From: Mollicutes bacterium
GTDB taxonomy: Bacteria; Bacillota_I; Bacilli_A; Izemoplasmatales; Izemoplasmataceae
Reading direction: 5' to 3'
Length of the DNA: 36,471 bases
NCBI GenBank assembly: GCA_003559235.1
Contig: PWME01000161.1
Location: 1 to 36,471 of the forward strand
How positions within the stretch are numbered: the stretch's first letter is position 1; every line of letters begins with the position of its first letter. A model generated the notes under the pieces. It was not told where the DNA came from and searched no databases. It worked only from the letters and a program-made list of their open reading frames with translations. Made by a program: the position numbers and the translations under genes. Shown piece after piece: positions 24,262 through 30,975 of this stretch.

Positions 24262-24795
24262 TTAAAATTGTAACAAGACTGAATCGTGAAACGCGCGCAT
24301 CCCGTGGACCACATAATCTTGAATGTTGTACCGCGCATCTAACGCGTCATATTGCTCAGTAAAACGTGGCGATGGTCTTCGTACAATGATTGTTTTGATG
24401 CCTTGTGAGTATAACGTTTCAATGGTTTCATTCAAAGGGGTAACTTGCAATGCGAGGATTGCCGCATCAAAGGAAGCATTTCCGTTATCAAGCGAGGTTG
24501 TATGAATATCGATAAACGCATCAAGCGCATGCTTTTTTACGACGCGCCTTGCTCGCTTAACGGCATAATGATCGATGTCAATGGCTGTGACATGACAGCC
24601 TTGCAGGGTTGCTAACCATAATGGGGTAAAGGGAAACGCGCCTGAACCAATAAAAAGCACTTTTGCTCCATCCTTAAGGCTTAGCATACTTAGTTCACGA
24701 TCAATTACGGCTTTGTAAGCATGGTGATAAAGGTGCGCGAAGCAGTGGCTGTAACTGAATAATTTCTCACTGTTTTTGACAATTGACTTTAACAT
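24262..24795 (-). CDS. Nicotianamine synthase-like / SAM-dependent methyltransferase-fold protein
   Basis: 'KVLFIGSGAFPFTPLWLATLQGCHVTAIDIDHYAV' matches the NAS-type SAM-binding motif pattern (G-S-G-x-x-P-x-T). Confidence 0.65.
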   Translation of the reverse strand: MLKSIVKNSEKLFSYSHCFAHLYHHAYKAVIDRELSMLSLKDGAKVLFIGSGAFPFTPLWLATLQGCHVTAIDIDHYAVKRARRVVKKHALDAFIDIHTTSLDNGNASFDAAILALQVTPLNETIETLYSQGIKTIIVRRPSPRFTEQYDALDARYNIQDYVVHGMRAFHDSVLLQF

Positions 24796-24956: not shown

Positions 24957-25469
24957 GTGACAATAATGATAGAAGCACTAACCAATTTGTTTGAGTCAGT
25001 GGCGCGCAGATTTCCTAGCGTGCGCCCGCTGTTTTCATTATATTATGATCGCATGTGTGAACGAGAGATTTTGGCAGTAAGAATGCAACCGCATCATCGT
25101 GTGCTTTTTATTGGCGCTGGTGCTTACCCTTATAGTGCGATGATGTATGCCAAAACGGGTGCGATGGTGACGGCAATTGATCGTGCGCGCGCCGCAGTCA
25201 TATCGGCAAGCCGCTATGCGCATGAGCGCTTGCGCTTCATTGAAGCGGATGGGGCAACGTTTGATATGGCACACTACGATACCATTATTATTGCAAAACA
25301 AGTTGTAGAGAAACAGTTTATTATCAATCAAATTAAAAAAACGGCGAACCGCCGTGTACGTATCTTAGTTCGCAGTGGAAAATCATGTCCATGTGCAAAG
25401 GGGTGCGCTTTACAATCGTTATCACACCGCGGTCGCTTGGTGAAACATTCATGGATGATAACGTTATGA
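24957..25469 (+). CDS. Nicotianamine synthase-like / SAM-dependent methyltransferase-fold protein (paralog of preceding)
   Basis: 'RVLFIGAGAYPYSAMMYAKTGAMVTAIDRARAAV' aligns with the divergent neighbour; start codon uncertain (24957 or 24966). Confidence 0.6.
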   Translation: MTIMIEALTNLFESVARRFPSVRPLFSLYYDRMCEREILAVRMQPHHRVLFIGAGAYPYSAMMYAKTGAMVTAIDRARAAVISASRYAHERLRFIEADGATFDMAHYDTIIIAKQVVEKQFIINQIKKTANRRVRILVRSGKSCPCAKGCALQSLSHRGRLVKHSWMITL

Positions 25470-27044: not shown

Positions 27045-27117
27045 ATAGGTTGTCGATATTTTTCGTGTGATTTCACGTAATTATCGCATAGTAACAATGA
27101 AAGAGAGTGGTGAATTC

Positions 27118-28041
27118 ATGGACAAAAGCATCAATCCATTGCATCCTGAAACGCCGTCACAACGTAATGTTTTTATTGTGACCGCATTTTTAGGGGTGCT
27201 TTTTATCGCGGGAACCATTATTTTTGGGACGCGCGTTTTGCTTGTGGGGGCAATCGCCTTAGCGGTATCGGCGGCGATAGAAGCCCTTTTTGCGTATTTT
27301 CGTAAACACCCCCTAGACAAAAGTTGGATGATCACGCCATTGGTATTAACATTGCTTTTGCCGCCAACCTTACCGGTTTGGATGGCAGGTGTTGGTTCAG
27401 CGTTTGGGGTCTTTTTTGGGAAAGCGATTTTTGGTGGCACTGGTCGAACAGTGTTTAATCCTGCCGCAGTTGGGTGGATTTTCTTATTCATTAATTTCCC
27501 ACGCTATATGGCGACCGATTGGCTTAACCCACAAACCGGGCAAAGCGGTCCTGATATTCCCTTGACAGAGCTTGCGGCCGGCACGTTTGATTATGCGTGG
27601 AATGATATATTGCTTGGTAATATACCTGGTGCGATTGGTGAGACGTTTGTACTCGGTATTATTGTACTTGGGCTTGCGCTTATTGTGTTTAAAGTGATTG
27701 ACTGGCGCATTCCACTGGTAACCATCGGTTCGGCATTTGCTTTGTTAGGCATCGGCCATCTTTTGATGCCAGATACCTTTGCACAACCCTTAGAAGCGGT
27801 GTTGGTAGGGAGTTTACTGTTTGCATCATTTTTTGTTGCAACCGATCCTGTTACCGCACCGGTTAAGAAGTTAAATCGTGTGTATTATGCGATTGGTATT
27901 GCATTGATTACGGTTGTGATCCGTACCTTCTCTGCGGCACCTGAAGGCGTTGTGTTTGCAATTGTGCTTATGAATGCTATTGGGTCGTTGTTTGAAGACA
28001 CTGAAGCAAATGTTGAAACAGAAGGAGTTGAAGCAACGTGA
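27118..28041 (+). CDS. nqrB: Na+-NQR subunit B / RnfD-like membrane protein
   Basis: 'GTGRTVFNPAAVGWIFLF', 'LLGNIPGAIGETF', 'FFVATDPVTAPV'; ATG 27118 after aaagagagtgg. Confidence 0.85.
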   Translation: MDKSINPLHPETPSQRNVFIVTAFLGVLFIAGTIIFGTRVLLVGAIALAVSAAIEALFAYFRKHPLDKSWMITPLVLTLLLPPTLPVWMAGVGSAFGVFFGKAIFGGTGRTVFNPAAVGWIFLFINFPRYMATDWLNPQTGQSGPDIPLTELAAGTFDYAWNDILLGNIPGAIGETFVLGIIVLGLALIVFKVIDWRIPLVTIGSAFALLGIGHLLMPDTFAQPLEAVLVGSLLFASFFVATDPVTAPVKKLNRVYYAIGIALITVVIRTFSAAPEGVVFAIVLMNAIGSLFEDTEANVETEGVEAT

Positions 28042-28631
28042 AAGATTATCTGAAAATGGTTATATTTGTGTTAATCTTAGGCGTTACAACCGCTACGGTT
28101 TTAACGGGAATGGATGCTTTGACGCGTGAACGCATCGAAGAAAACCAATTGATTGTTTTACAAGATGCCATTTTAGAAGCATCTGGTATTACTGATTATG
28201 ACGATACGATTTCGACATTTGAAGCGAACTTAGAGGTAATCGAAGCTGAAGGCAAAACATTTTATATTGATGGTGAAGGTCGCGTATCATATACGTTTGA
28301 AGGGTTAGGTGTTTGGGGACCTATTTTTGGTGTTATAACGTTAGAAGCCGATTTTGAAACCATCGCGTGGATTACAGTCATCGATCAAGAAGAAACCCCA
28401 GGCCTTGGTGGTGTGGTTGAAGAGCGAACCTATCTAGATAATTATGTGGGCACTTCTATGTACCCTGAACTTAGAGTGAGTCGCACAGCGGATGCCGATG
28501 ACATAAACGAAGTGGACGCGATTGCGGGTGGTACAAGAACAAGCGAACGGTTTGAGGCCATGCTCAATGAAGCGTATCAAGCCCATCGGGATGTATGGCT
28601 TACTTTACAAGAATCGGCGGGTGATGCGTGA
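28038..28631 (+). CDS. nqrC: Na+-NQR subunit C / RnfG-like FMN-binding protein
   Basis: N-terminal TM; 'WITVIDQEETPGLGG'; flavinylation-region 'DAIAGGTRTS'. Confidence 0.85.
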   Translation: MKDYLKMVIFVLILGVTTATVLTGMDALTRERIEENQLIVLQDAILEASGITDYDDTISTFEANLEVIEAEGKTFYIDGEGRVSYTFEGLGVWGPIFGVITLEADFETIAWITVIDQEETPGLGGVVEERTYLDNYVGTSMYPELRVSRTADADDINEVDAIAGGTRTSERFEAMLNEAYQAHRDVWLTLQESAGDA

Positions 28632-29254
28632 TGAATTTCATTCGCATGAAGTATACGAAATGGTTCAATATCTCAAAAGATGGCTTAAGCAAAAATAACC
28701 CAATCATGATTGCCGTACTGGGCATTTGTTCGGCGCTTGCGATTACCAACCAAGTTGAAAATGCGCTTGCGATGGGGGCGGGGGTTACTTTTGTTATTGT
28801 TGGAAGTTCTGCCGTTATTTCTATAATTCGAAACTTTATCCCTGCGCGGTTGCGTATGGTTACATACATGGTGGTTATTTCCTCGTTCGTTATTTTAGTA
28901 CAAATGTTTTTAGAGGCATATTTCCCATTTATTTTTGCAGCACTTGGGCCTTATTTAGGACTCATCATTACGAACTGTATTGTCATGGGCCGCGCCGAAG
29001 CGTTTGCATCAAAAAACCCTATTCGCTACACACTTGTTGACGGGCTTGCCAACGGGCTTGGGTATACGTATGTGCTCGTGTTAATTTCTATTGTGCGTGA
29101 GGCGCTTGCGTTTGGGACTATCTTAAACATTCGCGTAATGCCTGAAGCTTGGACAGATTGGGTTGTCATGGCCATTGCGCCGGGTGGTTTCTTTGTGCTC
29201 GGTGCTATCATCTGGATCTTTAGGGAGTTGACGAATAATTATGAAAATGCGTAA
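28628..29254 (+). CDS. nqrD: Na+-NQR subunit D / RnfE-like
   Basis: 'NNPIMIAVLGICSALAITNQVENALAMG', 'GPYLGLIITNCIVMGRAEAFA'. Confidence 0.9.
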   Translation: MMNFIRMKYTKWFNISKDGLSKNNPIMIAVLGICSALAITNQVENALAMGAGVTFVIVGSSAVISIIRNFIPARLRMVTYMVVISSFVILVQMFLEAYFPFIFAALGPYLGLIITNCIVMGRAEAFASKNPIRYTLVDGLANGLGYTYVLVLISIVREALAFGTILNIRVMPEAWTDWVVMAIAPGGFFVLGAIIWIFRELTNNYENA

Positions 29255-29283
29255 CTGTTTGTTAGAAAGAAAGGGTGAAAATC

Positions 29284-29877
29284 ATGGCTGATGGACCTAG
29301 TGTATTTGAAATATTTATTGGCTCTATTTTGGATAATAATATTGCTTTGGCGTTTATTCTTGGAATGTGTCCGCTTATTGCGGTATCTACAAGTGTTAAA
29401 AATGCTAAAGGCATGGGGTTAGCAGTCATTTTTGTGGTAACCTTGACTGGGATTATAAACTATCCGATTTATGTGCTGTTGCAACGGGTTGAAGCGACAT
29501 ACATCGCGCTGCTTGTTTTCATCATTACCATTGCGGCAACCGTACAATTTATGGAAATGGTTATTGAAAAATATTTCCCAGCTCTCTATAACGCGTTTGG
29601 GATTTTCTTACCGCTTATTACGGTTAACTGTGCTGTGCTCGGTGTCTCGTTATTCTTTGTCAACCGTTCATACAATTTCATCGAAACTGCATCATTCTCT
29701 TTAGGAAGCGGTATTGGGTGGATGTTTGCGATTTTACTTTTGGCTGGCGTGCGAGAAAAACTCGGGCGGTTTGGAAATGTTCCAAAAGGTTTACAAGGAC
29801 GCGCAATGGCGTTTATTATACTTGGAATCTTGTCATTAGCTGTCATTGGTTTTGCCGGCTTGGCAAGTGTTCAATAA
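29284..29877 (+). CDS. nqrE: Na+-NQR subunit E / RnfA-like
   Basis: 'DNNIALAFILGMCPLIAVSTSVKNAKGMGLAV', 'LGIFLPLITVNCAVLG'-like region (FLPLITVNCAVLGVSLF). ATG 29284 after gaaagggtg. Confidence 0.9.
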   Translation: MADGPSVFEIFIGSILDNNIALAFILGMCPLIAVSTSVKNAKGMGLAVIFVVTLTGIINYPIYVLLQRVEATYIALLVFIITIAATVQFMEMVIEKYFPALYNAFGIFLPLITVNCAVLGVSLFFVNRSYNFIETASFSLGSGIGWMFAILLLAGVREKLGRFGNVPKGLQGRAMAFIILGILSLAVIGFAGLASVQ

Positions 29878-29889
29878 AGGAGAATCCCT

Positions 29890-30975
29890 ATGAACTGGTT
29901 TGTACCGATTGTATTGATTGGGGTGCTTCTCATTATCACCCTACTCTTAATCATTGCGGATAAATACTTAGGCGCTGGTGGTGAGAAAACGCTCAATATT
30001 AACAGCGAAAAACCGATGGAAGTGCCTAGTGGTGACACGTTACTTAATACGCTTTCAAAGAAGAAAATATACATCCCATCAGCGTGCGGTGGTAAGGCGA
30101 CGTGTGGGGTTTGTAAGGTACGTATTTTAGACCCTGTCCCTGATGTCAAGCCAACCGAAGAACCACACTTAACCGCAGAAGAAAAAGCCGACGGCGTACG
30201 GTTATCGTGTCAAGTGAAACTGCGCCAAAGCATGCATATTGAAGTGCCTGAAGATAAGTTGAATGCGGAAGAATACAAAGCAAAAGTGGTCAACGTTGAA
30301 GACTTGACGTATGATACCAAACTGGTTCGCTTTGAGCTTATCAAGCCTAAAGAGATGAACTTTTTACCCGGACAATACGCGCAATGGCGTATTCCCGGGG
30401 TTTAAGTTATCCGGGCGTATTCAATTGCCTCAGACCCAAAAGAAAATAATAGTGTTGAGTTTATTGTTAGACTTGTGCCGGGTGGGCAAGCAACCACATT
30501 TGTCCACCGTGCCATGCGGATGAATGATACGCTAACCTTAACAGGACCATTTGGTGATTTCTATCTTCGTGAAGAAAGCAATAAAGACATTATTTGTATT
30601 GCTGGTGGTTCTGGTAAAGCACCGATTCGCTCCATTGTACGGCGCTTAGAAGCGCTTGGTATGCCAAGGAAAGTTCGCTATTTCTTTGGCGCACGCACCA
30701 CGAAAGACCTTTATTACACTGAAGAATTTAATGAAGTGGCAAAGAAGTATGAAAACTTTGATTACATTCCTGCATTATCGCACCCTGAAGATGATGAACA
30801 GTGGGAAGGTGAAACAGGATTGATTACGGATGTGCTTGACCGTTTAAGTGGTGATCTATCGGAATCTGAAGCCTATTTATGTGGTTCACCCGGTATGATT
30901 GATGCGTGTATCAAAGTGCTTGAAAAGCATAATGTTAAATCTGAAAATGTTTATTATGATAAATTTACAGGATGA
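29890..30975 (+). pseudogene. nqrF: Na+-NQR subunit F (2Fe-2S + FAD/NADH reductase), interrupted by in-frame TAA at 30403-30405
   Basis: Ferredoxin motif 'CGGKATCGVC...C' in the first part. After TAA the same frame continues 'VIRAYSIASDPKENN...GPFGDFYLR...AGGSGKAPIRSI...YLCGSPGMIDAC'. Either a nonsense mutation or a base error. Confidence 0.85.

Follow-up and report, generated by a model that had tools for sequence, protein, structure and literature searches.

The window, the whole 36,471-nucleotide stretch of DNA analysed here, carries five consecutive genes, nqrBCDEF (27067-30975), on its forward strand. Four of them are intact; the fifth, nqrF (29890-30975), lies in a single frame that is broken solely by an in-frame TAA at 30403-30405. 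The features are listed below with the near-invariant columns that each one keeps, a near-invariant column being at least 97% invariant among homologues, with deviations counted leave-one-out.

27067-28041, + strand: nqrB/rnfD-like subunit gene, intact (NCBIfam TIGR01946, NF003756); 17/17 near-invariant columns
28038-28631, + strand: nqrC/rnfG-like subunit gene, intact and with the flavin-attachment motif AGGTRTS (NF003749, TIGR01938); 21/21 near-invariant columns
28628-29254, + strand: nqrD/rnfE-like subunit gene, intact (NF006777, TIGR01939); 59/59 near-invariant columns
29275-29877, + strand: nqrE/rnfA-like subunit gene, intact, terminator TAA (TIGR01940); 51/53 near-invariant columns
29890-30402, + strand: nqrF 5' part, covering the transmembrane helix, the 2Fe-2S ferredoxin domain and the beginning of the FAD-binding domain (TIGR01941 positions 8-170); 27/27 near-invariant columns
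30403-30405, + strand: in-frame TAA at a codon position occupied by Glu or Asp in 105/105 homologues covering the site
30406-30975, + strand: nqrF 3' part, with the remainder of the FAD domain (RAYS) and the NADH-binding domain, in frame and with no second lesion (TIGR01941 positions 205-404); 61/61 near-invariant columns

The open reading frames 29890-30405 (171 aa) and 30475-30975 share one frame, and reading through the TAA gives ...GQYAQWRIPGV-stop-VIRAYSIASDPKENNSVEFIVRLVPGG... with no gap, as the initial annotation had described and as the homologue alignment confirms. One uninterrupted reading frame, as an NqrF gene should have, is thus not present. The two parts match the 405 positions of TIGR01941 in order (E 2.9e-37 and 5e-37, respectively), although neither part by itself (128.5 and 127.8 bits) reaches the curated cut-off of 295 bits. 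On both sides of the stop the matches follow the domain order of the NqrF of Na+-NQR (TIGR01941; Vibrio cholerae 8a1t, 7xk3, 4u9u), which consists of one transmembrane helix, a 2Fe-2S ferredoxin domain, and a FAD- and NADH-binding reductase domain. In contrast to the Vibrio gene, nqrF in the window is interrupted by the TAA and lies in a cluster without nqrA, and its protein is about 45 residues shorter, without the Vibrio segment before RAYS. The profile gap between the two parts corresponds to this segment, which is absent from the nqrF subfamily found here; because relatives align gap-free, the gap is not a deletion in the genome. The homologue alignment at the TAA site is free of insertions and deletions. 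A frameshift or indel at the G-run 5' of the stop was ruled out, as the alignment shows no length difference and both sides are in one frame. No second intact nqrF copy was found in the assembly, where the gene is single copy.

The stop site in related genomes

The homologue set combined orthologues from a family-level search with species-level genome contigs, which contributed 80 loci; these loci came from an alignment-based scan of the contigs, a single-protein scan having given none. Some genomes are counted twice among the homologue loci, which hold 89 distinct near-full-length sequences, and the named organisms are Izimaplasma/Acholeplasma/Tenericutes-type genomes. The codon at the stop site was GAA in 47, GAT in 47, GAG in 7, and GAC in 4 of the 105 homologues, and a stop in none. 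This comparison had been proposed in the initial annotation, which described the site as often polar in relatives; the site is indeed polar, and "often" understates an acidic residue that never varies beyond Asp and Glu. The accompanying suggestion, that one substitution such as GAA to TAA would explain the stop, agrees with the codons seen, TAA being a single substitution away from GAA. No stop was found within the nqrF match in any of 106 homologue loci, and among 90 genomes in an order-level search, about 31 had a near-full-length nqrF orthologue, with an internal stop in none but the window's own. The genus of the sequenced strain is represented by one genome in the comparison.

The residues around the stop are fully conserved. 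NqrF of the window deviates at 0 of 27 near-invariant columns before the stop and at 0 of 61 after it, as compared to means of 0.10 and 0.28 (maxima 1 and 4) in the other homologues. For the remaining subunits the counts are 0/17 (NqrB), 0/21 (NqrC), 0/59 (NqrD), and 2/53 (NqrE), so that the near-invariant columns give no sign of relaxed constraint in nqrF or elsewhere in the operon, and decay of the other subunits, all intact, was ruled out. Full conservation on both sides of the stop indicates that the lesion is either very recent or not real, and the initial annotation had suggested both, besides readthrough or reinitiation, from the well-conserved downstream part.

Decoding of the TAA and restart downstream

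A stop that is read as an amino acid would give full-length NqrF, alone or alongside a short form, and the frame and all conserved residues past the stop are intact, as this would require; moreover, the acidic site sits one base from TAA. We compared a 295 kb sample of the genome with open reading frames from 1.6 Mb of a single-contig relative, which gave 123 conserved regions (106 kb, 35,435 codons). According to the alignments, a true internal stop is present in nqrF only, and no frameshift was found in these regions. The other internal stops flagged in the scan are, on inspection of the alignments, at the start or end of a gene, where the alignment extends beyond it, and further ones are likewise no more than about 13 residues from an end. 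At 88 conserved gene ends, each with its stop no more than 20 codons away from where the homologue ends, the terminators were TAA (44), TGA (30), and TAG (14). An alternative code would place TAA inside many conserved genes and rarely at their ends; here TAA is the commonest terminator and, among the 123 conserved regions, is internal in nqrF alone, and genome-wide recoding was ruled out. A stop programmed for readthrough would be conserved in relatives, and no homologue shares it. Folding of the RNA around the TAA is unremarkable (z -1.3; 21 of 200 shuffles equally stable), and no significant structure signal was found at the stop. These results weigh heavily against a reassigned TAA and against any conserved signal for readthrough, and nothing indicates a new kind of decoding at this codon. 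Functional readthrough or recoding, which the initial annotation had raised, is therefore very improbable. Less probable still is that the strain reads through its lone TAA at a useful level, giving full-length NqrF together with a surplus of the short form, a membrane-bound protein with the ferredoxin only.

The initial annotation had also considered reinitiation at GTG 30475, which would yield two working fragments, a ferredoxin protein and a separate reductase. The frame 30475-30975 is open, and this GTG is the first usual start past the stop, about 70 bases downstream. However, it is the Val codon of a conserved RLVPGG stretch and not a recognisable gene start, no Shine-Dalgarno-like sequence precedes it (tttattgttagactt), and its product would lack the FAD-binding part RAYSIASDP. 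The 171-residue product made upstream would contain the membrane helix and the 2Fe-2S domain but only the beginning of the FAD domain. A restart at GTG 30475 is implausible because of the missing Shine-Dalgarno sequence and the loss of the RAYS flavin motif from the fragment, and no relative has a split gene; we give a functional split hardly any credence.

Nonsense mutation or sequence error

Two readings of the base itself carry most weight. We consider it slightly the better bet that the stop is a very recent single-base nonsense mutation of the sequenced strain. The conserved Glu codon just 5' of the RAYS flavin motif would have become TAA, and translation would stop after 171 residues, leaving a ferredoxin domain anchored in the membrane, with neither the FAD nor the NADH site complete. 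The nqrBCDEF complex of the strain would thereby lose its NADH-oxidising subunit, a null allele and an incipient gene loss. NQR receives its electrons through NqrF, which oxidises NADH (PMC4014512, PMC12174285), and from this we infer that the truncated product should be non-functional in that role.

If the TAA is an error of consensus or base-calling, or an allele of a minority strain picked by the assembler, the nqrF of the cell is intact and makes a normal full-length protein; we rate this as quite possible, with a chance somewhat short of even. The lone substitution comes with no other sign of decay, nqrF is intact in all relatives that have it, and the assembly is fragmented (261 contigs), all of which fit an error; the complete conservation elsewhere in the gene is predicted equally by a base-call error, and this, the fragmentation and the single genome from the genus count against a real mutation. 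One nonsense codon in 35,435 would correspond to about 2e-4 errors per base, given that 4.4% of random substitutions produce a stop; this figure has a very wide uncertainty and is possible for thin coverage. Against an error, well-covered short-read assemblies have a rate near 1e-5, for which our own arithmetic predicts no more than about 0.05 stops of this kind. The 106 kb of conserved coding sequence contains no frameshift and no other internal stop, and this low lesion background argues that the assembly is not generally error-ridden and supports a real mutation.

The wider distribution of the gene bears on the same point. Several near-complete relatives lack nqrF, even inside genera that otherwise have it. 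For example, in one genus (g9), nqrF is present in G022 and G029, but genome G008 (99% complete, 1 contig) gave no more than weak paralogue matches; G023 in genus g14 is a case of the same kind. The repeated absence from near-complete genomes shows that the complex can be lost, and loss of nqrF is common in the order. The genome of the window also carries a separate canonical rnfC-rnfD-rnfG cluster (L076, contig G000:C46, 8669-11901, cut by the contig end), which could make the loss of NQR tolerable. A real nqrF null is believable because such loss is common in the order and because the separate rnf cluster is kept. We thus lean slightly towards a real mutation and infer that the base is present in the cell.

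In its form, a lone in-frame stop with intact relatives, the lesion does not differ from an ordinary nonsense pseudogene or a single-base error in a metagenome-type assembly. Bacterial genomes and assemblies often contain a lone nonsense change, and the nqrF stop by itself is of little weight. If real, it would represent a redox-driven ion pump caught at the first step of its loss, in a lineage with repeated losses of this kind. The case is also a warning that split annotations of nqrF are not to be taken as two genes.

A cluster without nqrA

The more interesting side fact is that nqrBCDEF occurs without nqrA in the genome and with neither rnfB nor rnfC alongside. The six subunits of Na+-NQR, NqrA-F, are therefore not complete here. 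No nqrA match above the cut-off was found in any of 37 genomes (that of the window and 36 relatives), and weak matches, where checked (e.g., on G000:C46), are the rnfC gene. Most of the 80 loci (L091-L170), at least 65, have the five-gene order with varied upstream genes that, judged by eye, are not nqrA; they belong to Acholeplasma/Izimaplasma/Erysipelotrichia-type genomes. Genome G004 (96% complete) has nqrF and no rnfC match at all. A cluster of nqrBCDEF that lacks nqrA is thus conserved across these bacteria, and its product has the look of a natural NQR-type pump that does without NqrA. We found no description of such a cluster in the literature searched, which is not proof that none exists.

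Some minor observations concern other genes. In NqrB (27067-28041), the flavin-attachment region at residues ~150-175 reads SGPDIPL, as compared to SATPL or similar in many relatives, and several relatives are also without the usual threonine motif; the flavin site seems to be variable within the group. The rnfC match of one relative (G015:C15:7212-8483) contains one internal TGA, which may be an end effect. Within the window, two short, similar methyltransferase-like open reading frames lie adjacent on opposite strands (24262-24795, - strand; 24957-25469, + strand) and, by eye only, are possibly nicotianamine-synthase-like paralogues.
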